From NCBI RefSeq assembly GCF_026210795.1, contig NC_089456.1, forward strand, positions 560,501-624,500: 64,000 nt of DNA. The letters run 5' to 3'. The DNA comes from Rhizophagus irregularis (Eukaryota > Glomeromycota > Glomeromycetes > Glomerales > Glomeraceae). A program made the translations under genes and the position numbers. Below are positions 10,331-45,866 of this stretch, piece by piece (positions within the stretch are counted from its first letter, which is position 1; every line of letters starts with the position of its first letter). Under the pieces are notes generated by a model. The model saw only the letters and a program-made list of their open reading frames with translations, was not told where the DNA came from and did not search any database.

Positions 10331-10654
10331 ATTATTTTTAAGTTACAAAAAAAGCAAATTATATAAACTAAATTAAGAAAATTATTAAGAACAATTCTAA
10401 GTACAGTCAACTCCCTCTATAGTCACTCCCGTTATAGTCACATTCTACTATATACTTTACTGAAACTTGGAGTTTACAATCGATATTGATTAGATATTGC
10501 AATGATATCATTACGATATCATTACGATATTTTGATAAAAAATAGATTCGACGTCGTTAAGTTAGTCGTAACTATATTTATTCGACATTGATTAGTTCGA
10601 TATCTCTGCGATATCGCAGCGATCATTATGCGATGTAAATATTATCACGTAATC

Positions 10655-11430
10655 ACATCGTAGTGATGTCGTATTAACATTGAATTAATATTACAAAAAT
10701 ATTTGACATTTATTTGATATCGTAACCATGTCGTATTAACATTGAATTAATATTACAAAATATTTGACATTTTATTTGATATCGTAACCACATCGTAGTG
10801 ATATCATATTAACATCGAATTAATATTGCAAAAATATTTTACATCTATTTGATATCGTAACCACATCGTAGTGATGTCGTATTAACATTGAATTAATATT
10901 ACAAAATATTTGACATTTTATTTGATATCGTAATCACATCGTATTGATATCATATTAACATCGAATTAATATTCAAAAATATTTTATCTATTTGATATCG
11001 TAACCACATCGTAGTGATGTCGTATTAATATTGAATTAATATTACAAAATATTTGACATTTTATTTGATATCGTAACCACATCGTAGTGATATCATATTA
11101 ACATCGAATTAATATTGCAAAATATTTGACATTTTATTTGATATCGTAACCACATCGTAGCCATATCGTAGTGATATCATATTAACATCGAATTAATATT
11201 GCAAAAATATTAAAAATATTTTACATCTATTTGATATCGTAGCCACATCGTAGTGATGTCGTATTAACATTGAATTAATATTACAATTTTATTTGATATC
11301 GTAACTACATCATAATAATATCATATTAATATCGAATTAATATTACAAAAAATGTTTTACATTTATTTAATATCGTAACTACATCGTAATGATATTATAT
11401 TAACACCGAATTAACATCACAAAAATATTT
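10655..11430. repeat. Subterminal satellite, about 73-bp unit
   Basis: Roughly ten units of about 73 bp carry the words gaattaatattacaaaatat, tttgatatcgtaaccacatc and gtagtgatatcatattaac. Units differ by point changes and short indels. The array lies just inside the left end of element X and is rich in the near-palindrome gatatc. It resembles the transposase-binding subterminal repeats of CACTA elements, but binding is not shown. Confidence 0.75.
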
Positions 11431-12739
11431 TTATTGTAATATATGTTTATTATTTATTATACATTAATAATAATAATTTTTTATTAGTGGATTATTATGG
11501 GTGAGTGGAGTACGTTTCTTTTCTTCCTTTTTTTTTATTCTTTTCTTCTCTTTTTTATTCTTTTCTTCTCGTATGTGAGTGGATGGATACGTCATTTTCA
11601 ATTTTAAAATATATATATATATATATATAAAAAATAAAAAAAACAATCATGATTAATAAAATGTACTCTTTGTAAAATATATTTAAAATTTAATACATAA
11701 CCTTGGGATAATAGTTAGAGCAGGTAATTCCGGGATTTTGTAAAGAATAATAAAAATGATAATATTTTTAAGTTAGTTCTTTCTTTAAATTTTTTTGAAA
11801 GTGTTTTGTTTCTTAAAATCATAATATTGTAAAAAAATGCTGGTTGCTACGACTGACGGACAACGACAAATTGTCAGGCTACCCCCGGACAAAGTAATTG
11901 GAAGGCGGAAAATGCCATAAATATCCAGCCCTATTTTACAACATTTTCTTCCAGGCTAAAGCAAATATTACAAAAGAAATTGCAAATATATTTAACAAGC
12001 AATAGATACATGGCCGTTGAAAAATATATTCACACTTCATATTGTAATACCACAGTCTAACAAAGAAATTGCAAATATATTTAACAAGCAATAGATACAT
12101 GGCCGTTGAAAAATATATTCACATTTATACCACAGTCTAACAAAAAAATACTCAAACCACAACATATTGTAAAAAAAATATGAAAAATACGCGTATATCC
12201 TATTTTCATACCTTGCTTAACAGCTCCACTATTTATTTAAAAAACGGCTTTTTTCTCTTTTGTATGTGGGTAGGTGGGTACATTTTTCCTTTCTTTTATT
12301 CTTTTCTTTCGTATGTGAGTGGCGGGTACATTTTCTTTTCTTTATTCTTGCTTTTATTCTTGCTTTTCGTATGTGGGTGTCTTACTATGTTGAATATATA
12401 AACTAAAGTGTCCCAAAGTATTGTTAATATTGTAAAAAGATAATTAAAGTATACTTTAAAAAGAAAAAAGAAGAGACGAACTAAAATACCGTAAAGTATT
12501 AATATAAAAGACAAGAGAAAAGCGTATTTTTGAAAATAAACAAAAAAAATCTCATTAATAAACGCGAATTTTAGCTATTTTTAGATATCACATGCATGAT
12601 ATCACATGCATGTAATTAAAGTGATTTTAATTGGTTAATTTTAATTTATTATTACATCATGCATATGATTTTATTGGTTAAAATTTTATACGATACAAAT
12701 TAAAATAATTATTTTATTATATTTATATAATTAATATAA
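11431..12739. other. Low-complexity interval inside element X
   Basis: Two related pyrimidine-rich patches (11510-11590 and 12255-12380) share cgtatgtgagtgg and ttcttttctt words. An 84-bp direct duplication is visible (gaaattgcaaatatatttaa at about 11977 and again at 12063). Open frames at 11464-11646, 12180-12401 and 12296-12514 are by-products of the low complexity. No gene is seen. Confidence 0.5.
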
Positions 12740-15700
12740 TTATATGGCTGTAAAATAAAAATTATTTTTTATCCAAATTCTATTTGTAGTATCATGATTT
12801 GGTAGTTGGCACCTTTCTGAATTACAATTATGAATAAAATGTACTTTTTGAACATTATCTATTACAGTAATTGGAAAAATACGTCTCCATTTATCTCCTG
12901 TTCTTGGAGACGGTAAAGTGGACATTTTAATACTGAATGTTCAACCATAGTATCTTCAAACCAATCTACAACAATAAATGCATAATATTTGTTATTGTTA
13001 CCCTTATGTTGAAAGATACCTTTGATTATTGCATAAGATTCTTCATGATCTTCTTCATAAATTGTGATAAAATCATCGAGATGTAGGTGAACTTTTGAAA
13101 GGATACCATTTTCTTCTTCAATCATATATGATGCAAATTTGTACCAACTAATTGAAGAGTTTATAAGTGCCGCCTCAAACTTCATATCCACATAAGATAA
13201 AAACAATTCAGTTTTAAAATTATGTAAAGTTAAAAGAAGTTTATCACGTTCCTCGCTTTGGCATTCTTTTTTTTAATGAAATATTGGAAATAAAGTTTAC
13301 TGGAGATATAACTAAATTAAAAGATTAGTAAATATAAATATCAAACATGTACTATTATATGCAATAAAATACTTACTTTTTGTATCATCATCATCGTCTT
13401 GAACTTGTTCAGTTGCTTCAGTTGAATATTTATCTTCTGTAACATACCAATTTAAAAATAATTGTCCAAAATTTGAATTTGTAAATCCAGTACAAGATCT
13501 ATTAAATCTTGGATCAATACCACCATCTGCTAAATGTCGAATTGCAAATAAAGTATTGTAACGCTTTAATAAATCTAAATCTATGTTTTTGCAATTAGTT
13601 TTTGGTACCATCACCCCTTAAAAATACGATGGACCATTTCTTTTATACCAACTTGGGTATTAATAAAAGTGTTCCAAAGGTTTTAGCATGCATCAAAAGA
13701 TGCATATTAACGTGTATGTTTGGTAAATTAACAAAATTTACAAAAACCTATAAAAAGTAAAATATTGTTAATTATTTGAAATTATTCCACATTTCAATAT
13801 CAAATTTGTAACTATACCTTTGGAAGGATTGAAAACTCTTCTTCAAGACATTGTTGCAATTCCTCATAGCTATCTGATGTAAATTTCTTGTTAAAAACCG
13901 CTTTCATAGTTTTTGCAACATGTATCCAACAAGATATAATAATTTTTGGAACTGAACTAACTCGAAATGCATCAATTCTTTGTCGAATCAGTCGGCTGTT
14001 TCATTACGTTTCGATACTTGATTCTTTTAAAAACTGGTTTAACAAAAATGGCATAATCATAGCTAATCTAAGTAAATCCGACATCATAAAACTATTGTAG
14101 TGAGTAATCGGATTTGGTAAGCGAGACCATCTTTTTGGGATTTCAAAATTTTTCCAAATTTCGATAAAATTATCTTCTCCTTCTCGTGAAAATAATTCAC
14201 AAGTTAATTTTAGTAGCCGCCCAATCTTTCCTGCAGTCGCATGATAAACATCCTGCGGCGTCTGTAAATGTCTTTCCCTTTTTAATTTATCTAAAATACT
14301 AGGTAATGATCGTAAACCATATTCCGTACAAAGTTGATCTCTTCGACATTATAGTCTCATGAGAAATTTTTAAGATTTCTTCGTCTGTAATATGATGATA
14401 ACGTAATGTTGTTACGATATCCCTGATTGTGAGCACTCAATGATTCTTTAGTAGTTTTACAAGTACGACAACCCTTATTTGCATTATGTCTAAATTTATT
14501 TTTTAAACAATTTTAATAGTTGTCATAAAATTATATTATTATATTATTAACTAAGTTGAAAAAATACCTTAAGATCTCTGTCATATCGTTACCTTGAGGT
14601 AAATCTGCCGTAACAACGCCTAAACCAGCAATTATCCATGCATCTTGTCCTTGGACAGTCATCACCTTTCCTTTCTCTAATTCCTTCATTTCTGAAATGA
14701 ATGGTATCATAAATTCGTCAAATTTTCCTCCAAATGGGATAAACCCAATAACAAAATGGTTCTTTATTAGCTTTCTTTGATGTGCTGGCATATTTCCAAA
14801 CTGTACATAAACACCACCTAGAGAATGGTATACATTTCTAAATGTACCAAAATCATCATAATAAAGATCTAAAAACAGCTTATAGATTGGCATAGATGAT
14901 GATGGTGGATTTCTAATAGAAATGTAATCAGATGGATGTAGGTATGAAAGCTTTACATTACGAACGTGCCAACGGTCATTACATTTATAAATTATTTCAC
15001 TAATCCGCAATGAACCATCAGGAATATTTTGATGTTGAAACATCATCAATATAGTTACTTTTTCTAAAATTTGAGAAGTCATTATAATTAAAAATGGTTC
15101 GTCTTGTAACCATACTTCACCGGTAATAGAACGACGTTGTCTTGGTAACCCTTTTAAATTTCCGGGTAAATCACTATATTCCAAAATTTTTTGAATTCGT
15201 AACTGATAATATCCATCATGATTTTTTAAAATTGATCTTAATCTTCCAAGTTTTTTTTGACCATTATCATCACGATAGTAAACAAAATCACCAGATCGGT
15301 ACAATACTATTTATTAAAAATAAATAACTTTAATAAATATTATCAATGATAATAAATTATAATTGTATCAAAGTGTATTAATTTATAACCTTCTGATATT
15401 AATATTTCGTGTTGTCCAAAAAGTGGGGATTCCCCCCATAAATTTCCATGCCAAAATTCTGATTTTTCTTCAGAATTAATGCCGGGTCCAAAATACATAT
15501 GCTTCATTAGCATCGGATTATTAAGAACACGCCATATAATTTCACTAATTGAGAGTTGATACGAAAGTTTTGATCCTCGTGAGGTTGATGGAGTTTTTTT
15601 TGGTGAAATTTTAATAGACTTTGTTATTATTGGTAGGAGAGGAAGACGTTTTCTCCATGATTGGAATCTTCGGATATTTTTTACCACATGGGTAGGTTCA

Positions 15701-16399
15701 AATTGAGAATTGTGAATGATATCGACAAGATCTTCATATGCTTTCGTACATTATGTTTCGAAGCCAGCAAAATAATGCCGTAGTTGTATAATTATCAAAG
15801 TACGGTGCAAATTGACCATTGCAGAACGGTATCTTGTCTTCATCTAACGCTTCAACGATTTGATGTATTTCTTCCTCTTCGTTATTACGTTCCTCTTCAT
15901 CGTTATTACGTTCCTCTTCATCGTTATTACGTTCCTCTTCATCGTAATTACGTTCCTCTTCATCGTTATTACGTTCCTCTTCCACTTGATTATTATTATC
16001 ATCATTATTACCTTCATCCTCCTCCTCTTCGTCATTGTTTTCATTATTATCTTCCTCCTCTTCCTCCTCTTCATAATTGTATTCGTTATCACTTTCTTCT
16101 TCCTCTTCAGTATCAGATGAATTGACATTATCTTGCGAAAATATCATCTCATCATTGTAGTCTTGAGGATTAATTGATCCATATGCATTATCGTCATCAT
16201 TAATGTCTTGAAAACTTAAATCATCTTTATGATCATACTGAAAGTCCATGTCATCGTTATCATTATCAGGTGAACGTACAGGCGAACGAATTGCCACTCT
16301 CTCGTCAGAATCTGTTGTCTCATTAGGTTTGCTGTAAGAAAACCGATTTCGAATTCGAATTGGCTCTATTGGCTTGTTGTGACTATATCGTCTTCTCAT
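12740..16399 (-). pseudogene. Plavaka-type (CACTA-like, Tnp2) transposase, frameshifted
   Basis: The reading starts at 16399 (MRRRYSHNKPIEPIRIRNR) with a long acidic region containing about five 7-residue NNDEEER repeats (15882-15985). It continues through TTALFCWLR, YEDLVDIIHN, WRRYSH-distal NIRRFQSWRKRLPLLPI, and the core DLYYDDFGTFRNVYHSLGG, IKNHFVIGFIPFGG, GLGVVTADLPQGND, then RHNANKGCRTCK and LQTPQDVYHATAGKIGRLL. The tail has IKGIFQHKGNNNKYYAFIVV and WRRIFPITVIDNVQKVHF. I know these as the conserved blocks of Plavaka transposases common in fungi. Two introns are plausible (15307-15389; 14490-14567). Frame changes near 15755, 14431, 14365 and 12885 disrupt it, so the enzyme is very probably inactive. 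Confidence 0.75.
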
Positions 16400-16662
16400 C
16401 TTTATAACAATTTAAAATAATTCAAATTTAATTAGAACATAATTACCAGTGGTACCACTACCACAGTATCTGTTATAAATTCAATTAGAACTAAATTTAT
16501 TAAATACTATTAGTGTGTCGGCAAAAAAAAAATGCAATTAAGTAATCAATTCGGTTAAATTACTGCCGATTTGGCTACACAAAATTTAGGGTCAATTATA
16601 CCGGTTAATGACAATTGGTATGACAAATAATATTATCGAAAATAGTCATTTATTGAATCAGA

Positions 16663-16838
16663 AAATAAAATAAAATATATAATAATATAAAACATAATAA
16701 TAATTAAATAAAATAAAACATATAATAAAATAAAACATATAATAATAAAATAAAATAAAACATAATATTAAAATAAAATAAAACATAATAATAAAATAAA
16801 ATAAAATATATTAAAATAATAAAATAAAAAATAAAAAA
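16663..16838. repeat. AT simple repeat
   Basis: Imperfect iterations of aaaataaaacataataat lie between the 3' end of the SANT-like gene and the transposase pseudogene. This is low-complexity sequence with no coding capacity. Confidence 0.7.
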
Positions 16839-17417
16839 TCAATGACGTCGGTGAGACGCCCGCTCTAGTGTAGAGTCGAAAGCGAGACGCCTGCGCTCTC
16901 GGTGGTAGTAGGGGGATCGGGAGCGAGAGCGCCTGCGCTCTCTATACTCGTATGTCCTACGATCCATCCTATTTCTCCGGGCGGCCCGGACTAATGCTTA
17001 AAACAAAGCAAGTATTAATATAAATGCAATGAATTAATGAAAAAATCAGTTAAATAATAAATACTTACGCTCCACTCTCCAAAACTCGTCAGAGAGTTCC
17101 TGGTGGAATCTCTCGTCATGCAAAGTCGGGGTACGAGTGGGATATCCTTCAGGATTTCTGTTTATTAATCTCTCTAAATTCTCGTACCCCGACTTTAGCG
17201 CATTCCATTTCTCTCTACATTGTTTTCTAGTTGGCCTGAATATGTGGTTGTTTCGTATATCACGAGCAATTCCACGCCATAATTGGTTTTGGTTATGTAA
17301 CCTCGTTGTGGTGAATAAGGGCTGATAGGCCCGACGACGCTGAATTAAGGTCAAAGCAGCGTCATCGGGCCATTGAATGTATACTGGAAGATTTGCGTTT
17401 AAGTTTAATGCTGCCAT
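16839..17417 (-). CDS. SANT/Myb-like DNA-binding protein with arginine-serine-rich tail
   Basis: Exon 1 is 17069-17417 (ATG at 17417) and exon 2 is 16839-16990, separated by a 78-nt intron with a GTAAGT donor and TAG acceptor. The total is 501 nt, giving 166 residues with no frame break. Residues about 15-110 hold a Myb/SANT (trihelix-like) fold pattern: WPDDAALTLIQRRRAY, then NQLWRGIARDIRNN, then TRKQCREKWNALKSGYENL and DEFWRVE. The C-terminal exon is very basic (RERRRSRSRSPYYHRERRR) and its DNA is a GC-rich island in AT-rich surroundings. It sits head-to-tail behind the Plavaka-type transposase inside element X. I infer a DNA-binding accessory protein, perhaps binding the subterminal repeats; a captured host gene is the alternative. 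Confidence 0.7.
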
Positions 17418-17485
17418 TATTAAATATTATTAGTTTGATGGGGAAAATGTCAAGAAAAGGCTCTATATTTATAATAAATTTATTA

Positions 17486-17885
17486 TGATTTCTTTGAGTT
17501 TATTTTTACGATCTTGTCTAAATTTTTTAGTTCTAATGCAATCATCCTTAATTAATTTATTTAACATTGAATACACACATAATTTTTTTTTGATTTCTTT
17601 GAGTTTATTTTTACGATCTTGTCTAAATTTTTTAGTTCTAATGCAATCATCCTTAATTAATTTATTTAACAATGAATACACACATAATTTTTTTTTGATT
17701 TCTTTGAGTTTATTTTTACGATCTTGTCTAGTTCTAATGCAATCATCTTTAATTAATTTATTTAACATTGAATACACACATATTTTTTTTTGATTTCTTT
17801 GAGTTTATTTTTACGATCTTGCCTAAATTTTTTAGTTCTAATGCAATCATCTTTAATTAATTTATTTAACATTGAATACACTCAA
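17486..17885. repeat. Tandem repeat, 105-bp unit, four copies
   Basis: Copies start at 17486, 17591, 17696 and 17791. The third copy lacks about 9 bp (aaatttttt), which shortens that period to about 95. Because 105 is divisible by three, both strands show long repetitive open frames (17469-17777 minus and 17485-17793 plus); I regard these as by-products, not genes. It lies just upstream of the SANT-like gene. Confidence 0.85.
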
Positions 17886-18552
17886 TTTTTTGATTTATCA
17901 ATTTATTTTAAAAATATAATTATAGTAATACTGCATTAATTAATATATATAAATAAAAATAAATAAACAAATTCTATTAATAAAAAATGAGTTAAAATGT
18001 TATCTTTATACTTTATAATTATAAAATATAATATTTTAAATCACGCATGTCCTTCCTTGATTATATTTCATATTACACTGCGATGATATATTACAATTAT
18101 ACTGAATTTTAAGCTAACCTTAATTTACACCGTAACGAACTTAATTCGATCTTAATTTACTCCGTTTTAGGAATATTATCGAACAATTAAACAAATGATT
18201 AGTTGCACATGACTTGTATTATTTGAATAGTTGATACTTTATATACCGATATTTGATTACACCAATATGTATTAAAACTCTTTCCTATCAGTAATTTCAC
18301 AATTTCAATCAATATATCGGTATTTTTCAAATATCGTTGTAAGTCTACTACTGTAGATCCCATCTATTTTTTATGTAATCAATCCAGAGGCTTACACTAA
18401 ATAGATATGGCTTAGTTAGATAGGATCATCACATGGTTCATTGGCTCAGTTATTTTTCCGTCAAGAGTACCAGGATCTTATAAATTTTTTTTTCTTGCAT
18501 GTCATCGTATCACACATAAAAATGGAAATTCAAAACGTAATATTCCATTAAT

Positions 18553-18690
18553 TTCTTCTCACTCCTTTTCTTCTACCGATCATTTTTCTTCTCACTCCTT
18601 TTCTTCTACCGATCATTTTTCTTCTCACTCCTTTTCTTCTACCGATCATTTTTCTTCTCACTCCTTTTCTTCTACCGATCATTTTTCTTC
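18553..18690. repeat. Tandem repeat, 33-bp unit, just over four copies
   Basis: The unit contains ttcttctcactccttttctt followed by ctaccgatcattt. Copies are almost identical, which implies recent expansion. The last copy degenerates into cttctcacctttcc. No gene overlaps. Confidence 0.85.
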
Positions 18691-19178
18691 TCACCTTTCC
18701 ATTATTTTTCTTCTCATTCCACGTATAGCCTGAAAAATATAATAAATTTGAAACCGTAAAATCGATTTGCGGTAATCTTCCATGTAAAAAAAAATTTCAC
18801 TGAATGAAATTCGATATTGTAATAATTTATTTATATTAATTAAATTTAATTTTCGATCTTCTAGAAATCATAATTTTTAGTTTTCCCATCTCCTGATATT
18901 TTTAACTGATCCTGCATTCTACACGATACACAATGATATTAAGATCACGTATATTTTCCAATTAAATACTACAATCATAATTACAATAGCTAAAATCTCA
19001 AAATTATATCACGATAACTCGCCCTTTTTTTGTTCATTCAATATTTATCATCTACTTTTTTGAGCAAGAAAGTTGCTCTACATTTTTTATTCATTCATAT
19101 TTTCTCGATAAATATCACCTACTTTTAAACAAAAAGGTTGTTCCACTTTTTTTTTCGCTCATATTTTTTTTTTATATT

Positions 19179-19490
19179 ATGACGACTAAACGTAAATTAC
19201 CTAATAAATCGTCTGATGATAATCAAGAAATGGAAGTTGAAGGAGGTATGTAGATATAACTCTTTTGTAAATTTATAGTAAGTTTTGCTTATATAGTTAT
19301 ATGTAAGAAGAATAATTAATAAATACCAAAAATATGTATAATAGGATCGAAAAGAAAACAAATTACGAAAAAAGAAGAGATATTGACATTGAGAAAGCCA
19401 ATCAGTTGATGAAAAAAAGTAAAAATAGTAATAAAGAAGCTGCCGAATCTGCTGATAAAGAAGTTATAGTAGTAAATGAAAAAAGAAGTA

Positions 19491-19534
<44 letters not shown>

Positions 19535-20455
19535 AATGATGATGATGATGAGAGTAAGACGGAAGATCATAAAAAACCCGAAGTATTTCAATCAAAGTCA
19601 AATTTAGAAATAGTTGCTTGGCTCGTCGACCATCCGGAAATTTTAAGATTGGCACTAGAAATGAACAATACGGATGTTGCTATCTCATCATCCAGTAAAA
19701 TTACGGACGTAAGTATTAAATTAACATGATTTTATTATGTCTAAATCTTTTAAATAATGTATTTTTAATATTTTAGGATAAAATTCGTCTATGGGACGAA
19801 AGTGTCAAGTGTCTTTTTTTACGTGCAAGAAGTCCGCGTGGTGAAGTTTTTGATGAGTTGATAACAAAAATTTTCAAAATAAAAATACATTCGAACGAAG
19901 CTTAAAAGCTACCTCGAAAAAACCCGAAAATTTTTTATCGATTTCAGAAATAAGTTTAACCAAATTATTTTAACTTCTGTAGAAGAATTTAAAGAAATAA
20001 GAAAAAACAGGTATTTATTTAATTGTTTCGTAGCTAACCAAATAGTGCTGTTTGTATTAATTATTAATTTAATTATAGAGCATCTACTGGAAGTTTATCT
20101 CAAAAGGAACTTATAGATTACGTTGATGAAGAATTTGTCCAAAAGATTTTAAGCCGACAGCTTGTAGCTGTTAATATTTCAGAATTAACAAGAAATGGAG
20201 GATTCAATACCTTGGTTGATTTCGTAAGAGAAACCTTTAAGGTTTCGTGGAACGGAAAAAATTTGTCCGCCGTTAAAGAATTAGATAATATGACCAAAAA
20301 ATTAACGATCCCTTCTAGGAGCGGAAATAAGATCGTTGATTCTTTATCGGTAAGTTATTTTATTTATACTGTACCGATACTTCATATCCTTTAATCATAG
20401 TTATTAATAATAATATTAAATTATACATAGTTATAAATCTTAGCAAACGCTCTAA
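19179..20455 (+). CDS. Unidentified acidic protein gene, multi-exon, with one frameshift
   Basis: Exon 1 starts at ATG 19179 (MTTKRKLPNKSSDDNQEMEV). The next exon (from about 19345) encodes IEKKTNYEKRRDIDIEKANQ, a run of 14 aspartates from a gat repeat (19493-19545), and SNLEIVAWLVDHPEILRLA, ending at a GTAAGT donor after ITD. The third exon encodes DKIRLWDESVKCLFLRARS and YLEKTRKFFIDFRNKFNQ, and the fourth ELIDYVDEEFVQKILSR and VDFVRETFKVSWNGKN, with a GTAAGT donor at 20350 and a tiny last exon (QTL, stop at 20455). One extra A near 19881 breaks the frame inside exon 3, and joining exon 1 in phase needs a weak donor. The WDES...LFL pattern recalls Myb-like domains, but I do not recognise the family. 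It lies inside element X. Confidence 0.5.
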
Positions 20456-22309
20456 TTTTTTTATAAAATTATGCATTTTATAACGATATTACATTGAATA
20501 AATTTAGTAAATTTTACAAGCAAATGATAATATGAAACATCATTATTCTAAACATTATACCGTAATGTCGAGTGATAATAATATAAAATAAAATGGATGT
20601 ATAAAACTATAAAATGTTTGTCTAAGATATAACATTTTCAAGTTTAAAAAGTAATTGTTGTTTTGTTAAAAATGGAATGGTTATTATATGACGTTTCTTC
20701 TTTAGTATATACGGCCTAAATATCTCTATATATTTGACGTTCTTATACAGATCAAAAAGAATACATTTGCGTAACATTTGCGTAAAGTAAGAACTTTAAA
20801 GTTTAAGCCAATTCTGACTGGTAATTTACAAAATAACAAACACATTTCTTAAAAAAAAATTCTGAATCAGAATACTTTTCCGGTTTCCATCTTCGATTCC
20901 CTGCAAAAAATTGAAAAGTTCAGGTGCGATAATTTAAGAAATATCCACCTATAAAGAGACTAAACAATTATCAGGTTGATCAAGTTCGTGTAATACCAAA
21001 TTTAATAAATTGTCTGATTAAATGATCGCGTATATTAAATGATCGCGTATATTATAAGGCTATAAGGCCTATTAATTCCTAAAAAGTCAATTTAACCACT
21101 ATTTTATTTAACCGCTATTTATTTGTACGTTTTTTTTTTTTTGAAAAAAAAAACTTTCTTTCTGAAAGTAGAGTCTTCCTCCTATACCGTTTGCCGTCGT
21201 GCATAGTGTGTTATAGGAAAAGGCGGACTTGAATTATATAGGTGTAAGCTTATGTTATATAGGCGTAAAGCTTATATAATTAACGCAACGAAAATCCTTT
21301 AATCAAAGGTTAAAATAGGCATGATGGGATATTCTCATATATCATGAGCTCTGTCTGTTCGAAGTGTCGTTTTATATATAATTAAGTAGGCTTAAGTCGT
21401 AAGTAACTTTTTTATAACATTGATTATTGGAGAATTAAGTGGCAAAAATAATTTTTAGTTTGTAAGACTTTTAACTCCATACCAACTTGTGTGTGTTTGG
21501 CGTGTAATTAATTCCCTAACCCGCCCACCCACTCGTGGGTTATGTGAGGTTGCTTTGCACTTCTTGCAGCCTACCTTATAATGGGTTTTAGGTCCACGTT
21601 TGCCCATTTAAAATTTATTAAACAGGATGTCATTCGTCCAAACACATTGCAACGTTTGTTGATGAAGCTATAGTTGTCTAATAAAAGTTCGCTTTGCCAG
21701 GCAATTTATGGTGGATTCAATGGATCAAATTACAAACAACAATAATGCAGTCATATGAGAATTCCAGGCCAAAGAATAAGGGTGAATTGTCAAAGTTGAG
21801 AATATATTTGTATTTTTTTTTTAAAGCCGTCATTCTCATGAACTTTTTCATTGTATCCCTAAATTCAATGATTTTGGTAATGATGAAACTGCAGTTGTTT
21901 ATAGGGGTTTCCCGCCAAACTTCTGAGGTGAATTTATGTCTGGTGTTTTCGAATATACTTATCCTTTTTGCAATAGAGTCGTAGCGAGTATTCTTAAAGC
22001 GTACCTGTGACACCCCATCCAACTTGGGCAGTGTCGCTGAATCTAAAGCAAGGTACCCGGTTAATCCTCAACTTTGGGTTGATGAGTTATGATTCTGGAG
22101 TATTAAGGCATAATGTTTTGACTTACATCACCAATTTAACTCATAATTCTAATTTATTGAATTAGTTTATTATAGATTTATTGATATTTTTTTTATCTGT
22201 TATATAATATTTAAACTAATGTATACTTTATCTGTAATTAAAATTGTTATTGTAATAAATAACCGGTAACTTAAATCTATTGAAATTAACTTTTAAATTA
22301 GATTACAAA
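20456..22309. other. Gene-free interval inside element X
   Basis: A less AT-rich patch at 21480-21700 (cccgcccacccactcgtggg and flanks) and another at 22010-22080 look like fragments of an unidentified repeat. A short direct duplication, attaaatgatcgcgtat, occurs twice at about 21017-21055. Overlapping open frames at 21694-21984 and 21717-22022 are on opposite strands and show no motif. No gene is seen. Confidence 0.4.
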
Positions 22310-23130
22310 TTATTAAAATATTATAAAACGATATTTGATTGATTTGATATTTTTATAGATAATATCATTTTGATATTATTTTGATACTGAATTAATATTA
22401 AAATAATATTATATTGATATTGCATTTATTAAAAAAAATCATTATTGTTATAACAATATCAAAATGATATCGTTTCGTTATTTGTCAATATCGATTAGAT
22501 AATTATAAAGTGATATCTTTACGATATCATATTGATATTGAATTAATGTTAGAACGATATCATATTAATATCGTATTTACTTTCTATTTTTCATTATTGT
22601 TATAACAATATCGAAATATCGATATGATATCGATTTGATGTTTCGTCAATATCGTTATGACGTCGATTAGATAATTATAAAGTGATATCTTTACGATATC
22701 ATATTGATATTGAATTAATGTTGGAACGATATCATATTAATATCGTATTTACTTTCTATTTTTCATTATTGTTATAACAATATCGAAATATCGATATGAT
22801 ATCGATTTGATGTTTCGTCAATATCGTTATGATGTCGATTAGATAATTATAAAGTGATATCTTTACGATATCATATTGATATTGAATTAATGTTGGAACG
22901 ATATCATATTAATATCGTATTTACTTCCCATTTTTCAAAAAATTCATTGTTGTTATAACAATATCGAAATGATATCGATCTGATATTTTTTCAAACAAAT
23001 ATCTTTACGATATCATTTCGATATATTGAATTAATATTGAAATGATATCATTGCGATATCATAATGATATCATTTGCAAATCGATATCGCCACGATATTT
23101 ATTTAACATCATTATTATATCAATTCGGTA
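22310..23130. repeat. Right subterminal satellite with about 172-bp units
   Basis: Three units of about 172 bp begin near 22581, 22753 and 22923 and carry ttgttataacaatatcgaaa, gatatcgatttgatgtttcg and gtgatatctttacgatatc. Flanking sequence is also built from gatatc, atcgatat and related near-palindromes. The array lies just inside the right end of element X and mirrors the left array in word content, though not in unit length. Confidence 0.75.
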
Positions 23131-23159
23131 TTGTTTAAAAATTCAAGGTTTCTGTAAAG

Positions 23160-23405
23160 TAGTCATACCAGTTGAATGTTCAAAACACTTTATTATTAAA
23201 ATCTATCCTATATAGTTACAATCTAGCTATAGTCACTATCACACCTATCCTCAAAAATCTTATATTAAAAAGAACCGTTTATAATTACAGTTATATAAAG
23301 AATATATTAAATAACTTGGCATCTAATAATCGTACAAAGATATATCATAGCTTGTTAGAATCGTCTCACTGAGACGAATCGAATGGTGGTAGTTTTATCC
23401 TTTCC
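23160..23405 (-). mobile_element. Segment of pogo-like element P
   Basis: Reading agtcataccagttgaatg through gaatggtggtagttttatcc, this is the reverse complement of 45280-45525 in the intact P copy. It ends at the word TAGTTTTATCC(T)TTTCC, after which three retroposons and LINE copy 1 intervene before P resumes at 33911. Confidence 0.85.
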
Positions 23406-33910: not shown

Positions 33911-34556
33911 TAGTTTTATCCTTTTCCGATCACTGGCTGACGAGTTATTCAACAAAATGTTAAACATCAGCATTATAATATTTCTTGATTTACGTTTACT
34001 GCGCCATTTAACATTTTACTAGATTTCTCGGTACCTAGTGATTGTGAAAAGACGATTTATAGCTCGTTGGAATCGCCTCATCGAGACGAATCGAATGGTG
34101 GTAAGCTCATCTCTCTGTGATCAATATTGACGGAGTTATTACTTAAAAACCATTTAATATTTTTTAATTTCGGAAATTGATCTAGTGATTGGATTTCGAT
34201 GTATCTTATACCATTAGATTCGTCTCATCAAGACGAATCGAATGGTAGTAAGATCGTCTTTCTAGGATCAATATTGGTAGAGTTATTACACAAAAACCAT
34301 TAATATTTTTTTAATTTCGAAAATTAATCTAGTGATTGGATTTCGATGTATTTTATACCATTAGATTCGTCTCATCAAGACGAATCGAATGGCGGTAAGA
34401 TCATCTCTCTACGATTAATATTAGCGAAGTTACGATACACTAAAGTTTTAAGTATAATTCTGGCTAAAATTATGTTAATTTTTGGCCGGAATTATGATAT
34501 ACAAATATAAGAAATTTTTTATATAGTCACATCTCTTTATAATCACCAAATATGAG
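33911..34556 (-). mobile_element. Segment of pogo-like element P with internal 147-bp tandem repeat
   Basis: This resumes P exactly where 23405 left it and runs to the LINE copy 2 insertion. Between 34075 and 34420 an internal repeat has a period of 147 bp (agacgaatcgaatgg starts at 34084, 34231 and 34378). Each unit contains the palindrome attcgtctcatcaagacgaat and a shared gatcaatattg block. The same repeat occurs inverted at 44800-45140 in the intact copy. Confidence 0.8.
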
Positions 34557-34694: not shown

Positions 34695-36817
34695 ATGTCT
34701 TCACCTCCAGCTCCTTCTGTTATTAACCCGGATATTCCGCCACCACCACGTCCTATTACTTCTACTCCTTCTGGAGACCGACCTTTGTCTCCCACGACTA
34801 CCACTGGCGCGCCTAATAAACGTTCACGTATTGTCACTGATGATGCTATGAATGTTGATATAACTTTGCCCTCTGCTCCGCTCCCACCCTTACTTCTTCC
34901 GTTCCTTCTGGTCTTCCTGTCAACAAAGTCCAAGTGATTACCTCTCCTCATACTACTACTACTCCTGTTGAAACTGTTGACGCTTCTATCCATGCTCCCT
35001 CCAACACCGATGGTAAAGGCAAAGCTGTTGCCTTTGATATTCCAGAACGCCAACCATCCCCTGATGGTAATGCTGCTGCTATCAAATTCGCACCCTCTCG
35101 TTACCATGCTGTGGCTTACCTACGCGACGCGCCTGACGCGTTCAAAGCTAAATTTACCACCAATCGCTCCATGTGTGACGAAGTGGATTGTTCACTCTTC
35201 CGATATTCCTCATATGGTGCCCACGCACGCTGCGATGGATCAGGAGATAACAAAAAGATCCTTGTCTTCTTTAATGATCAGCATGATTATACCGATTGTG
35301 TCAGCTCCCCACATGCAGATCTTCTCAATTTAGCCTTTATGCATTATTCCCCTGCAGATGCCAAACTCAATGACGAAGCAAAGTCTTTGTTTGTTACCGA
35401 CATCCCACTTTTCCTTACTGAGACTCAAGTCCGTCAGGCATTTTCCCGATATGGTACCGTAATCAAGTGCAAACTTACCCCTAGAAACCATTACTATAAT
35501 AGACATATCCAGTTTTCTTCCACGGATGCAATTACCCAATTTAATGATATTTGGGCGATTATTTGCCTTGGTAATTCTTTACGTGTCTCGCCCGGCATCT
35601 TTTTCAAAATCCCAACGCGATAGCCGCAGAGAACATGTTGCTATTCTTGCCGGCATTCCGAAGAATATTAAAGAAGCTGATCTGTTAGAAATTGCTACTC
35701 AAGTCAATGCTAAGGCCCTTAATGTCCCCTTGTCTATCAGTTCTTACAAGCCTAAACCCTATGTATATTTGAATTTCTCCTCGTTTGAATCTCTTGAAGC
35801 TGCGCAAAGAAATGACCGTGGCTTTCCGCGGCAAAGGACTAACATGGCACCCTCCTAATGAAGCACAAATTTTATGCCACGTTTGTGGGCGTCCTGGTTG
35901 TTCTCCCTCTAAGTGCAATCCCCGTCCCACACGGAAAGTGGACGATCGCCTCAACAAACTTTACTCTCGCTTCAATGCTGGCCCTGTATGACGACTGTCA
36001 GGACTCACGACAATCACGTGACAATTCTAATTCCCGTTCAAGATCGCGTTCCAATTCTCGATCTCGCAATAATAATTCCTCTTCATCTCGCTCTAATAAC
36101 AGCCATAATAATTCTAACACTTCTCGTCCCAATACTCCTCGAAATAGCAACCGGACCAACAATACTAATAATAATCCCAGGAACAATGATAATTCTTCCG
36201 GATCTACTCAACCTCCGCACAGACCTCATTCTATCGTTTCTACAACACCTACTTCTTCATCTGACAATCCTGCCCTTACACTTCCTCAGCATGTTATTGA
36301 TGAATTAAAGGCGCAGATCAAAGAGATCGCTAACACCCTCCATACTCTCAAGGAAATTGTCTCTTGGATGAATGATACTATCACGGCTCATGAGTATAGG
36401 CTATCTGAGCTGGAATCAATGATGAATTATGATGCCCCTGACGACTCTAAATTGCATTCGCCTCCAAATGATCATGACCATTATAATCATTCTTAGGACA
36501 ATGGATGGGATGACGCTCCAATCCAAGACACGAATTCTGGATTCAATCTTCCTCCCCACACTTCCTCTTCTCTTATGGACATTTCTCCTGATGCCTCCTT
36601 CTCAGCTTTGGATCCTAGCTCTATCCTTTCAAACCGACATGTCCCCTTACCTGTCTCCCGCCCTATTAATATCACTCCTGACGCTAACACTTCCCGTTTG
36701 CAATCAGAAATTTTTAATGTTACTAATACACAAAAGAATCTTTCTGCCCAACTTGGTTCGATTATGGAAAAATTGGACTCCTTCTCTCCCTCAAAACCCT
36801 CCCCTTCTAATGATTGA
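34695..36817 (+). pseudogene. LINE copy 2 ORF1: RRM and zinc-knuckle protein, frameshifted
   Basis: It begins MSSPPAPSVINPDIPPPPRP at 34695. A frame change near 34930 leads to the main piece 34934-35623, with FDIPERQPSPDGNAAAIK, KSLFVTDIPLFLTETQVRQ and an RRM-like second half HYYNRHIQFSS. Further pieces give REHVAILAGIPKNIKEADLL, the zinc knuckle CHVCGRPGCSPSKC, a basic SR-like stretch (NSRSRSRSNSRSR), a helix with LPQHVIDELKAQIKEIANTL, and a tail ending GSIMEKLDSFSPSKPSPSND (stop 36817). An in-frame TAG lies near 36496. The ORF2 ATG (36810) overlaps the ORF1 stop in ATGATTGA. Confidence 0.75.
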
Positions 36818-39800
36818 ACACCAATTTATATTGGGTGCATCACAGGGATTTCACCCCCCTAATAGTGCGTTACCTAATAATAATAGTTTTAATAATCCCT
36901 CTTCTCCTTCTCTTTCCTCCCCTCTTATTAACTTTGGGCAAATCAATGTTAATGGTTTGTGCTCCCCTGTTTGACAATTGCATTTGTTAAATTATTTTTT
37001 GCATTCTTCCTTTGGCGTTTTATCTTTAAATGATACTCGTCTTACTTCTTTTGGTGCTAAATTTATTTATCAGAATGAACATTCCCATTATAATTTTAAA
37101 TCCTATTGGGCACCTTCCCCTTCTAATTCACGACCTCATGATGGTGTTGGTCTTTTACTGCGCCATCCTTTACACAAACATGTTCAGAAGATTGATCCTT
37201 GGAAAGGTCATCTTTTAAAATTGGATCTTTTTTTCCATCAAAAAAAAATTTCTATTATTTCTGTTTATATTCCTCCTTATCACTCTATTCATTATAAAGA
37301 ACGAGATGCTATTTTTGCACAACTTAATTTATGGCTTGATAAAGCCCGTTCTAATAATTATCATGTAGTAATCCTTGGTGATTTTAATGCAGATGAACTT
37401 TCACATTCACACCTTCCTCAACATCATTTAAAAATTTTGCGATCACTCTCCTCTCGATATTTTACGGATCATCAATCCCATATTTCTTCATTTTCAGGTC
37501 CTAGTCCTACTTTTTATCATCAGAATGGTTCTTCAAGACTTGATTATATTTGGTCATCCCCTGGTTTTCCTGCTCCCGGTCTTTTCTCTCATGTTGAATC
37601 TTGTCCTAAGTTAAATGACAATCCATTTACTGATCACCGTGTACTTATAACGGCTTTTGATTTTAGCTCCTGTTTCGCTACTCTAGCTAAAGCTAGATTA
37701 AAACAAAAAAGCGAACAACGCACCATTTTTCTTTACAAGAATTTGAACGATGATACTTGGGACAAATTTTCTATTGAAGTAAACTCGCGTCTTGAGTTGT
37801 ATTTGACCACACATCATCCTTCTATATCTTCACTTTCAGCTCTTTCTTTGGACAAACTTTGGTACGCTCTTAAACGTTCTATTCTTGGTGGTGCCATTGA
37901 TTCTCTACCATTTCAACATGTATCCAATACCCATCACCATAAACATCCTCCTGAGCTTACGATGCTTATTGCTATCAACAAATTTTTGGATAGATTATTA
38001 TTCAAACTGACCACGTCTCGGCCTAGTCGTCCAGCTCAAATTTCACAGATGATTAACTCTTTGTCTACACAATTATCTCTTCTCAAATCTCTTTTGAAAG
38101 ATTATACTATACCTAATTATAGTACAACACCACTTCCCGCTTTTATCAAATTTTTGCGTTCGCAGAAAACTTTGGTCTCTGCATATCTTTCCACGCAATT
38201 TCAGCAACATCGTGTAGATTCCATTGAATATTATACTGCTCTTAGAGATGAACATTTCTCTACGTCCCCGGGCTCTTTTATTTCTTCAGCCCTATCAGTG
38301 GAACATCGTTCTATCGTTCTAGATAGAGTTTTGGTTGTTATTGACTCTAAACCCACTTTACTTACTGATCCTTCAGATATCAAGCAAGCTGCTATTAACC
38401 ACTTCCAATCGGTTGTTACTCCTCCTTTGGTCCAGTATTCTTCTATGGATTCATTTCCTCCACGATGGCAAAGAGCATATACTCCTCTTTCTGATATTGA
38501 TTCGTCGTTATATATCTCGGTCATGTCTCCTATTTTGGAAGATGAATGGAAAAACATTCTCAATTCTATGCCCAATAACAAAGCCTCTGGTCCTTCAAAA
38601 ATTTCTTATGAGATGCTCAAACATTTAACTGGCGAAGCTTTCAATTTATCCCTTATTTTAGCTAATGCCTGCCTCATTCATGGAGATATTCCTGCTGATT
38701 GGCGTGAAGCGCTTGTTTATCCCATTTCAAAGCCTCATGAATTTGACGCACAATTAAAGAATACGCGACCTATCACTTTGTTGGAAACTGTACGAAAATG
38801 TGTGGTTAAGGTCGTTACAACTCGTCTTTCAAATATCCTAGCTGACAACCAAGTGCTCCAAGGTGGTAATTTTGCTGGATTGCCAGGTGGTTCCACTGAC
38901 ATTCCTATTAAGATGCTTGATGCTATTATTCATCAACGACGCTTTGATAAAAGCTACGATGCCAAGAGTTATGGATTGTTTCTTGGGACATTTCTAAGGC
39001 CTTTGACTCAATTGATTTAAACATGCTTAGACTAGCTTTAATCCGTCTGCATATACCGTCTTTATTGATTAAATTTATTATCAACCTTTTTACAAGACGT
39101 AATAATAAAATTATTACCCATTATGGTGATACTTCTGGATATAGAGTTAGAATTGGTATTGACCAGGGTGAAATCATTTCTCCATTATTATGGGTCATTT
39201 ATTTGGATTCTTTGCTTACCACACTTAATCGAGAAGCCTGTGATCCCTTTATTTTGAAATCTTCTGCACTATTGGATTATTCTCCAACTGAATATGAACA
39301 ACATAATCTCCCTGTTTCGCATATTACATTTATGGACGACTCCACTTTGATTGCTTCATCTAAACGAGGAATTGAAGATCGCCTTTCCATTACTGCTGAA
39401 TTTTATACTTTAAATAATACTCAAGCAAATTCAGCAAAATATATCCTTCTTTCTTCTGAACGATTCTCTCAACTTATAATGTTTGATCTTTCTCCATCTT
39501 CCTTGATTACAACTTCTACCCTCACTTTAAAGGCTTTAGCCTTATCAAAATCTTTCCGTTTTTTAGGTGTTTGGTTCTGCCTGTCAGCTTCTTCTCACTT
39601 TGTTCACAACCAAACTACTTCCATGGTCAAAGATATGGCTGCTTTACTTAGTCCTAAAAAGCTTTTGGCTCAACATGTGGCTTATCTTTATAATGTTGTC
39701 CTGCTTCCGAGGCTAGAATTTCGCCTACAAACCACATTGTTTGCGGAATCTACCATTAATCGCATGGTTTCTCCAATGCTTTCTTTTATTCGACAAAAGG

Positions 39801-42294
39801 CTGGTCTGGCCTCAGTTACTCCTCTTTCTGCGCTTTTCACATTATTACCATTTTCAAGCCAACAAGCATTTGGTCGTTTTCTTTCATCCCATGTGGCTTC
39901 GCTGGCAGAAAATTTTTTCTCGCCTTGTATAAACCTTTTGCCAATTATATGATTACTTATCTTCAAAGTTTTTTAGACTGTGATACCTGCCCTTCTACTA
40001 TTAATTTAGAACCATGGTCTCATACCTTTTCCCTGCGAACACATTCTTTATTCAATTCTTTACTGTTCTTTTCTCGTTTAAATATCACGTGGTCTTTAAT
40101 GTTCCGACCTCCGAGGAAAGATTTATGTCCGGCGATCTCACTCCGGTCTATTTTACCAAAAGACTTATTTACTTCCATGAAAAATGTCCGGAAAAATTTC
40201 AGCACTCGTTTTCTTGCTCAACTGATTACGCCGTGTGGCTCTCGACTTCTCTCGTGGAAAGATTTATGCTTTCTTAAACGAGTATCAAACAAAGGATCTG
40301 TGCCTGCTTGGTTTAATTATTTGTTCAATCTTATTGTTATTCCTAATTCGCCTTCCTTTTTTATTTTACAACAATTTAGAATTCCTAGTTCTCATACTGT
40401 AGCTTCTATTTCCTTTATAGATATTAGTCGAAATTATTAGTTTAACCCTCAATGGGCTATTTCTTTTAATCGTAATACTAACTCTTTTCTTGTTGGCCGT
40501 GTGATTACTACCTATCCTGCTCCACGTAATGAAGCTCTTATTTCACATTGGATTGCGTCTTCGGTTGATGACTTGCTTTCTGATTTTAAAGCGTGTCAAG
40601 GTTGTGCCTCTGCTCTCCCGCGATCCTCTACCTTTAAGACTCTGCTTAAACGGTGTCCCTCTGAAAGATGTTTCTCTTATGTTCCATTATCAAGTTTGAT
40701 CCGTTATCCTACGAAACCTCGTACTTATATACATGCGGACACTCGTTCGGTTTCACTCTCTGCCTCGTTAGGTTATGCCAAATCTCTTTTACTATTCCAT
40801 CTTTTTGCTCCGGATCGGTTACCTTCTATAAATGAACAAATGCCCAGGATTTCTGATATCCAACTTCCTTTATCGGTGTATACACTTTATATTGATGGTT
40901 CCTTCCTTCCTCCTTCTAATCATCCGGTATCCTCGATGGCTTATGCATCGGACTGCTATAGATTCTGATGGATTTATTTTGGAATCTCATTATAATATTA
41001 TTTCTTCTATTTTTCCTTCTGCTTTACGTTCAGAAGTTTTTGCTTTATTGCATGGACTGGACTCCCTCCCTCTGAATTCCAAGATTACTGTCGCCACTGA
41101 TTGTGCCCAATTACTTTCCCTATGGTCCTCATACGTGAATGCTCCTTTTATTCCCAGAATGCTTAAAGAATTTAACCATCTCTTATGGTCCTCTATACGA
41201 GTTATAAAGTCACATAAGAATCTGGATGTTACCTTGATCAAGGTTCCTGCTCACGCTGATGACACTTTGAATAATCATGTGGATGCATTAGCTAAAGCCG
41301 CTCATACGGACTCACACCTTTCTTCTCGTCCATCATTGGAATTGTTAGCTCCTTGCATATTACTATTTAATTCTTTACCTGTGGATATGAACATCCAGAA
41401 ATTCATCAGAGATATTTTTGACGCTAAAACTCTTTTAACTCTTGCTTTATTACCAAGATTTAATTCCTCTTCTTCAACTTCTGATATTGATTGGGCTTGT
41501 ACTAAATTTTGTCTCATTAATGATAAGCAATTTGTCTCCCATCGGAATGGTCGTTCCGAGTTTTGTGGTTTCCGTATCAAACTACTATTAGATATGCTTC
41601 TGACGCTGACAACTCTTCAGAGACGAAAGCCTCATCTTTATAATCCAAGTTGGCTTTGTCCCTCAATGTAACTCTTTTCCCGAGACTTTAGACCACTTGT
41701 GGACTTGTCCTTATATCTTACCGGAATTTAGCCCTTTAAATACTTTTAAAACACTTCTATTGGCTCTTCGGACTAATTATCTTGATAAATTCCTTTCCGC
41801 GTCATTTTTAATACCTTTGCCGACTTCTTTTGCTGCTGAATTTATAGCTCTTCGATTGTTGGGATTGTGACCCTCCTTCATTTTCTTGCCTGAGACTCGC
41901 ACGAGGACTTATACCGTTATCCCTTACTGAATTCCTTGGAATTTATTTCTCTTCACCTACCATATGGTCTATCTTAGATACACCTTTGCACGACTTTCAT
42001 TTTGACCTTTATGTTCAGATCTGGTTGTGCCGTTCTATTTTCTTTCATCATTGGGAATCAGCTCAAGGCATTACTAAAAAAATGAAATTGTCAGCTCTTG
42101 ATCCTTCTTCTATTTCACGCACTTCCTTTAACATTCCTCCTGATTCTTCAATACCTTCCCTGGCGACAGTTTCCTCGGATTCCTGGATTTCTTGGGTTTC
42201 CTCTTCTATAATCCGTGGGGGATCTTGGATTTCACATTTGGATTTTTGGCGCCGCTTAACAGTTCAGCCTCTACTTAGGATTTCTTTTTGGTAA
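36810..42294 (+). pseudogene. LINE copy 2 ORF2: endonuclease, reverse transcriptase, RNase H, broken
   Basis: After MIEHQFILGASQGFHPPNSA and FGQINVNGLCSPV comes a TGA (36972-36974) where copy 3 has CGA. The endonuclease and first half of RT are open to 39020 (LGDFNADELSHSH, SSRLDYIWSSPG, FTDHRVLIT, SGPSKISYEMLKHLTGEA). RT continues in a new frame from 39023 (GIDQGEIISPLLW, FMDDSTLIASS). Later pieces include the CQGC...CPSERC cluster, LYIDGSFLPP and ALRSEVFALLHGLDSL of RNase H, KVPAHADD, and the terminal WISWVSSSIIRGGSWISHLD (stop 42294). At least five frame changes and a TAG at about 40438 make it non-functional. Confidence 0.85.
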
Positions 42295-45700: not shown

Positions 45701-45866
45701 ACCCTCACGACCCAATACTAGTGTCTCTAATTCTACTGCTTCCTGCCTGCAATTGGAAATTTCTAATGTTACTAACGTCCATAAAAATCTTTCTGTTCAA
45801 CTTGGTTCGATAATGGAAAAATTGGACTTCTTCTCTCCCCCACACCCCTCCCCTTCTAATGATTGA
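42783..45866 (+). pseudogene. LINE copy 3 ORF1, frameshifted and split by a DNA transposon
   Basis: It begins MTTPKANPDIPLPPLPGPTI. The main open part (42880-43890) has FDIPERQPSPDGNAAAIKS, SLFVTDIPLFLNKTQVCQ, YYNGYIQFSS and HVAILAGIPKNIEEADLLE. The zinc-knuckle region follows in other frames near 43965 (CHVCGRSGC). The Asn-rich and LPQHIIDELRSQIKKIADTL segments run to about 44600, where the 961-bp element intervenes. The tail resumes at 45580 and ends GSIMEKLDFFSPPHPSPSND (stop 45866). The ORF1 stop and ORF2 ATG again overlap as ATGATTGA. Confidence 0.75.
44617..45577 (+). mobile_element. Complete pogo-like non-autonomous element (reference copy of P)
   Basis: Termini are CAGTCAACTCTCTTTATAGT (left) and, inverted, CAGTCAACTCCCTCTATAGT (right), each next to TA. 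Removing it and one TA rejoins LINE ORF1 (ccatctcataa, then TA, then cgagttcacga) in register with copy 2, which proves the boundaries. The interior holds the 147-bp repeat with the gattcgtc/gacgaatc palindrome. There is no transposase frame; the 60-codon open frame at the right end is accidental. It would need a pogo/Tc1-type transposase in trans. Confidence 0.85.

Follow-up and report, generated by a model that had tools for sequence, protein, structure and literature searches.

A transposon inserted into a host repeat

In this study, we examined a 64,000-bp stretch of Rhizophagus irregularis DNA (contig NC_089456.1, positions 560,501 to 624,500; hereafter the window, in whose own coordinates positions are given) in which a sequence-only reading had placed a large CACTA/Plavaka-like transposon. 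The element occupies 10455-23159 (12,705 bp), lies between two copies of a 2-bp target duplication, TA (10453-10454 and 23160-23161), and is closed by short terminal inverted repeats (TIRs), CTTTACTGAAAC on the left (10455-10466, plus strand; CTTTGCTGAAAC in most copies) and CTTTACAGAAAC on the right (23148-23159, minus strand). Inside it lie a subterminal satellite next to either end, a transposase gene (12740-16399) and a SANT-RS gene (16839-17417) on the minus strand, and on the plus strand a gene that we call the partner gene ('ACC'; 19179-20360), which diverges from the transposase. From an empty site in the window and 27 paired copies in the genome, we confirm 10455-23159 as a complete 12.7-kb cut-and-paste transposon, with boundaries and ends as first described.

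The host repeat is also present uninterrupted, at 45285-45580 on the minus strand, and this copy represents the pre-insertion site. Fused with one TA removed, the flanks of the element gave a continuous 296-bp match (98%) to 45580-45285 that runs across the junction, and matched separately to the host repeat they overlapped by exactly 2 bp. Insertion and duplication are therefore directly shown, in agreement with the earlier claim that a host repeat is interrupted at one point of its intact copy with TA on each side. At the junctions, the window reads TATA followed by CTTTACTGAAAC (10454/10455) and GTTTCTGTAAAG followed by TA (23159/23160). The bare end 12-mer, allowing up to two mismatches, occurs 22 times in the window against 17.1 expected, a number reached in 9 of 100 shuffles and not clearly above chance, so the proof rests on the empty site and the copies.

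Copies were sought across the genome (146.7 Mb, 32 contigs) with the outer 200 bp of each end as queries and 40 candidates scored per end, which makes the copy counts lower bounds. Strong matches numbered at least 40 for the left end (one of 41 left-end matches, a fragment, was dropped) and at least 42 for the right, where only the 42 full-length matches were used. An oppositely oriented right end lay within 40 kb of 29 of the 40 left ends; as two right ends were used twice in the pairing, these represent at least 27 distinct elements, that of the window included; no mate was found for 11 of the 40 left ends or for 15 of the 42 right ends. (C6:5152737 has two right ends, separated by 316 bp; the inner was used for pairing and the outer for reading the flank.) Most of the paired copies (18 of 27) measure 12.5-14.5 kb. 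Transposase and partner gene matches lie inside 25 of them and a SANT match as well inside 21, while the two copies without a transposase match (8.2 and 8.8 kb) retain the partner gene. The other copies are thus neither confined to short, geneless forms nor bounded by ends that never pair, and transposase, SANT and partner genes do travel together; short derivatives may also exist, since some ends are unpaired or unscored. In six full copies, identity to the window copy over the longest alignments is 95.8-98.6%, and the expansion therefore looks fairly recent. Element ends at C8:13503, C22:10125 and C2:11592 each lie less than 15 kb from a contig start and are perhaps subtelomeric.

All 27 flanks were read, and the end pairs sit in differing surroundings. 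An identical 2-bp duplication flanks 22 of the 27 pairs (TA 14, AA 4, AT 2, TT 1, AC 1) and an identical 3-bp duplication none; when right flanks were shuffled 10,000 times, identical 2-bp duplications averaged 10.1 and never exceeded 18. These flanks support a large TIR transposon with 2-bp duplications. The duplication is not specific to TA, however, since 8 of the 22 identical pairs show another dinucleotide. The termini are also conserved, with CTTTRC present at 27 of 27 right ends and, as printed, at 25 of 27 left ends, the exceptions being C22 (displaced, with a change inside the end) and C6:5589119 (without the first C). Across the whole genome the 17-base end pattern has 158 exact matches, compared with none for a reversed control. 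The ends are inverted, as the sequence-only reading had it, and do not resemble those of CACTA elements: ends of the form CTTTRCWGAAAC fit neither the CACTA nor the Plavaka group.

Next to the ends, the left satellite (10734-11430) consists of 9.4 copies of a 73-bp unit and the right (22491-22937) of 2.6 copies of a 172-bp unit. Both are rich in GATATC, as reported earlier, which reaches 17 and 20 per kb in the subterminal regions compared with 0.5 in the middle of the element and 0.3 elsewhere in the window.

Two further repeats were seen in the window. Inverted repeats of 644 bp (33911-34554 and 44655-45298), 97% complementary, 10.1 kb apart and with 147-bp tandem units inside them, are perhaps another large element or a piece of the host repeat of the transposon. 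A direct repeat of about 5.7 kb (36530-42264 and 45579-51299) recurs at a spacing of about 9.04 kb, with sampled blocks 77-92% identical.

Transposase, partner and SANT-RS genes

The transposase gene (12740-16399, minus strand) was delimited from open reading frames (ORFs) and homology to relatives, its outer ends being read by eye; it has several exons and is frame-broken in the window copy. Its acidic N-terminal part (15734-16399) had been taken for a separate acidic protein. In relatives, however, the terminal stretch of this minus-strand ORF (15734-16411) runs on into the next transposase block in one open frame, giving fused ORFs of 337 amino acids in the C7 relative and 352 in the C13 relative, whose transposase cores are 79% and 53% identical to that of the window. 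The acidic ORF is therefore the N-terminus of the transposase, and we rejected it as a gene of its own. Nor does the window copy look autonomous, as had been proposed: its transposase has frame changes in four of five tested segments, and all five are open in two of seven copies (C19:408779 and C20:1440555).

The core exon (14531-15310, placed from the alignment) encodes a BAH-like stretch followed by two conserved aspartates. Across a ten-member alignment, D152 and D240 are invariant and C259, C262, H326 and H335 are conserved in at least 90%, with a histidine spacing that deviates from the signature compared. The BAH-like domain preceding the core is a lead rather than proof, being recognised in one of ten members (E = 9.3e-6 on the isolated region); in the relative L074 the match (E = 4.3e-5, 23.8 bits) falls under the cut-off of 30.8. 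A second BAH-like region, at the C-terminus, is only weakly matched (two of six members, E = 0.041 at best) and bears hardly any resemblance to the first (3.5%). Searches of the PDB with the transposase and both BAH-like regions returned nothing convincing, and our literature search found no paper joining Plavaka and a BAH domain.

For the genome-wide distribution of the transposase, the best 147 of 275 candidates were scored; 149 matches were listed, and 135 loci were kept after 14 were dropped as further fragments. Between families, the ratio of non-synonymous to synonymous substitution rates (dN/dS) is 0.08-0.31 for the transposase and 0.13 for SANT against the C7 family, which shows both genes to be under purifying selection at this level.

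The partner gene (19179-20360, plus strand), which the sequence-only reading did not name, was recognised from conserved blocks in relatives and from co-location counts. It has several exons, whose ends are approximate, with an acidic stretch and conserved blocks. Its last conserved block served as genome-wide query, with all 138 candidates scored and 13 of 128 matches dropped as further fragments. The gene lies divergently upstream, within 9 kb, of 76 of the 135 kept transposase loci and on the transposase strand at five. Under random placement, with an assumed length of 4 Mb for some contigs, the divergent count averaged 0.57 and never exceeded 4 in 200 runs. By transposase identity to the window, the divergent partner accompanies 34 of 45 loci at 86-100%, 17 of 22 at 76-85%, 12 of 20 at 60-75%, 10 of 18 at 49-59% and 3 of 30 at 30-48%. 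All seven families that we opened contained its blocks, although the match in the most distant one was weak. Three block profiles were built from five of these families, leaving two independent families at 42%, in which the last block was matched with E = 4.6e-9 (L075/L076) and E = 6e-6 to 0.002 (L077/L078, L077 being marginal). Distances for partner and transposase across the seven families are correlated (Mantel r = 0.77; 19 of 5040 permutations). The partner core gave no informative match in Pfam or the PDB and none to the tnp2 proteins of this genome (profile comparison 0.2%). In maize Spm, a second protein, TnpA, has an end-binding or assembly role, and on these sequence patterns the divergent plus-strand gene appears a better candidate for a TnpA-like partner than SANT.

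The SANT-RS gene (16839-17417, minus strand) comprises an exon at 17069-17417 with a Myb_DNA-bind_4 domain (PF13837, E = 9.2e-11), which bears out the SANT-like protein first noticed, and an Arg/Ser-rich exon at 16839-16996; with the inferred splice sites the model is open for 168 codons (168 amino acids). The best 150 of 253 SANT candidates were scored, for which reason its absence is not absolute, and 62 of the 150 were dropped as fragments or weak matches. Within this scope, SANT lies beside 42 of the 135 transposase loci, only one of them below 76% identity: it is found upstream on the same strand at 26 of 45 loci at 86-100%, 15 of 22 at 76-85%, 1 of 20 at 60-75%, 0 of 18 at 49-59% and 0 of 30 at 30-48%. 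Conversely, of the 49 SANT matches kept at 70% identity or above, 44 have a clade transposase within 10 kb. The SANT gene, Arg/Ser-rich exon included, is thus a feature of the closest families only, and we rejected it as a core partner on this distribution. Weaker relatives (38-39%) are numerous, two of the 30 kept lying within 10 kb of a clade transposase. Two such loci that we opened (L062 and L063) belong to a common 2-kb repeat, 98% identical, in which a SANT gene with an Arg/Ser-rich stretch adjoins a hAT transposase, of an unrelated superfamily; in one of them a hAT dimerisation domain (E = 1.8e-5) was found on the strand of the SANT gene. A further relative (C18:427079, 61%) has the RS-type exon and no clade transposase within 10 kb. 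SANT is thus best read as a probable later acquisition, related to a gene also carried by a hAT element.

Related families, affinities and rival readings

Relatives share part of this architecture. In the family at 52-53% transposase identity, CTTTGCAGAAAC ends and 2-bp duplications (TA, TT) bound two copies of about 8 kb; in a 42% family a CTTTGCAGAAAC end closes one side, as seen in both copies; and a copy of the 71% family (C16:4039871-4063467, 23.6 kb) has TA on both sides and CTTTGCTGAAATC as its second end. This last copy (L079, L053, L054) contains extra ORFs. One of them, 315 amino acids long, recurs as diverged copies elsewhere in the element and has a relative in the C4 family, and the window contains no match to it. 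Among the tested ends, those of the window, C7 and 71% families are enriched in GATATC, the last having arrays at both ends; no enrichment was seen at either end of the 52% family or at the single end that we tested in a 42% family. We therefore rejected a subterminal motif common to the whole clade. The satellites are optional and independent of SANT, since the 71% family has GATATC arrays and SANT was not found there.

CACTA/EnSpm elements have termini beginning CACTA and a 3-bp target duplication. The element described here is like them, and like maize Spm in particular, in its short TIRs, subterminal arrays, large size, remotely related transposase core and second element gene; it is unlike them in its CTTTRC ends, its 2-bp rather than 3-bp duplication (0 of 27), its lack of a PF02992 match, and a partner core that has no informative Pfam or PDB match and does not match the tnp2 proteins of the genome. 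PIF/Harbinger elements likewise have a Myb/SANT gene adjoining the transposase, but the transposase here is different, with no Harbinger domain in Pfam scans, and SANT is limited to some families. Further comparison relies on a published description (PMC12730594), which gives a 3-bp duplication for fungal EnSpm, 2-bp duplications for PlavakaA, TGT..ACA or CATCA..TGATG termini for Plavaka and, in most cases, 5'-CA..TG-3' termini for CMC/CMCT. Against that description, our element agrees with Plavaka (PF18759; PlavakaA/PlavakaB) in being fungal, in its CMC-like transposase and in 2-bp duplications as in PlavakaA, and departs from it in a transposase under the Pfam cut-off and in CTTT..AAAG termini; from CMC/CMCT it departs in having 5'-CT..AG-3' termini. 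ESTA, an EnSpm-like group with TA duplications compared by its published description (PMC12730594), is similar in being CMC-like with a 2-bp duplication that is often TA here (14 of 22), and dissimilar in that 8 of the 22 are not TA.

Whether the clade is an ordinary but divergent Plavaka member, missed by too narrow a Pfam model, bears directly on these affinities. The sequence-only reading called the transposase Plavaka-type, which Pfam does not bear out: the ten window ORFs gave no Plavaka match at E ≤ 1, and among the members tested no transposase model reached threshold, with no PF02992 match. Sub-threshold Plavaka matches in two of ten relatives (E = 0.006 and 0.046; best 16.2 bits against a cut-off of 26.3), a profile match of the clade to six Pfam-positive Plavaka loci of the same genome (94.9%, E = 4.6e-8) and the 2-bp duplications described for PlavakaA (PMC12730594) speak for such a placement. 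The PF18759 model, however, is not blind to R. irregularis, as 123 loci of this genome pass it, and the window transposase is neither among them nor among the PF02992 (tnp2) loci listed, of which there are at least 155. The clade is, moreover, equally near to the tnp2 proteins of the same genome (95.4%, E = 1.9e-8, 18% identity compared with 10% for Plavaka), the Plavaka and tnp2 profiles match each other at 96.1%, and two control comparisons gave 0.1% (transposase with partner) and 0.2% (partner with tnp2). The CTTT..AAAG ends, too, match neither form given for Plavaka. For comparison we looked for the ends of a Pfam-positive Plavaka family, whose two copies align across all 8 kb examined without an end being reached. 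We regard membership of Plavaka as possible, though doubtful. Given near-equal matches to Plavaka and tnp2, the clade looks like a third branch, and it is best read as a putative third lineage of CACTA/Plavaka-like elements that has a partner protein of its own.

The role of the accessory genes admits other readings as well. As the sequence-only reading implied, the element might be unable to transpose without the SANT protein, which would take the part of TnpA and bind the GATATC satellites. Such a role would suit the Myb/SANT fold of this protein, its dN/dS of 0.13, its match in 21 of 27 full elements and the proximity of 44 of its 49 closer matches to clade transposases. It is nevertheless improbable, with SANT upstream of only 1 of 20 transposases at 60-75% and of 0 of 48 below 60% (best 150 of 253 candidates), and with GATATC-rich arrays at both ends in a 71% family where SANT was not found. 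Somewhat unlikely, though less so, is that the partner gene is a travelling anti-silencing or host-interaction gene outside the transposition machinery, for which its want of an informative Pfam or PDB match and the occurrence of such genes (TET/JBP) in DNA transposons of other fungi (PMC12730594) can be cited. That it occurs so widely (at 76 of 135 loci and in every one of the seven families opened) and has diversified together with the transposase suits core machinery better, and cargo-like behaviour is seen in SANT and less so in the partner.

Proposed mechanism and significance

Taken together, we consider it probable that the element belongs to a cut-and-paste lineage of the CACTA/Plavaka (CMC) kind, working with a transposase and a divergent partner, to which SANT-RS was added later and in which the window copy could now be moved only in trans. 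A DDE transposase, as the conserved aspartates, the C..C pair and the two histidines suggest, would recognise ends beginning CTTTRCWGAAAC, excise the element and insert it at 2-bp targets with a preference for TA. The partner protein, we infer by analogy with TnpA in Spm, is most likely an end-binding or assembly factor acting with the transposase. The SANT-RS gene, as a family-specific addition, may act by binding the satellites near the ends or may aid expression, and the BAH-like stretch could act as a chromatin reader. Because its transposase is broken, the window copy would need to be moved in trans, for which other copies look open.

Several points weigh against this account. Five of the 27 pairs have no identical duplication as printed; C22 yields TA after realignment of its left end by eye, and the other four do not. 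The test of openness covers five segments and excludes the unalignable acidic N-terminus (the first 158 residues of the C7 query), and the last acidic residue of the DDE triad (E) was not located in the ten-member alignment. Within the close family dN/dS is uninformative, as values are undefined, 0 or up to 1.3, and for the partner dS is saturated in several pairs, defined dN/dS values being 0.26-0.35. The partner was not detected divergently at 59 of 135 transposase loci, including 27 of 30 in the 30-48% bin, for which decay, sensitivity and real absence are alternatives. A C4-type subfamily (L061, C4:4100501-4107500) has the partner on the transposase strand, not divergent.

A bolder version of the proposed lineage can be offered tentatively: a third major CACTA/Plavaka-like lineage of 8-24 kb elements, with an obligate, co-evolving partner of unknown fold and a BAH-like module that would read chromatin so as to choose or avoid targets, whose younger members recruited a SANT-RS type associated with hAT elements. 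The literature search for this element type in R. irregularis brought up general surveys of transposable elements; in two of them, Plavaka is reported as prevalent (PMC11075540) and CMC elements are among recent expansions (PMC8647823). Copies of the family may therefore already sit in published repeat libraries of this fungus under such labels.

In conclusion, a transposase family with 149 matches among those listed escapes Pfam in the members tested. Its transposase and partner form a pair conserved over wide divergence, which can serve as a natural test of whether CACTA-like transposition needs two proteins outside plants, and comparing families that have SANT or satellites with those that lack them distinguishes the core from optional components. 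The SANT-RS type, which accompanies two unrelated transposases, has a counterpart in the TET/JBP genes that are reported to move among fungal transposons.

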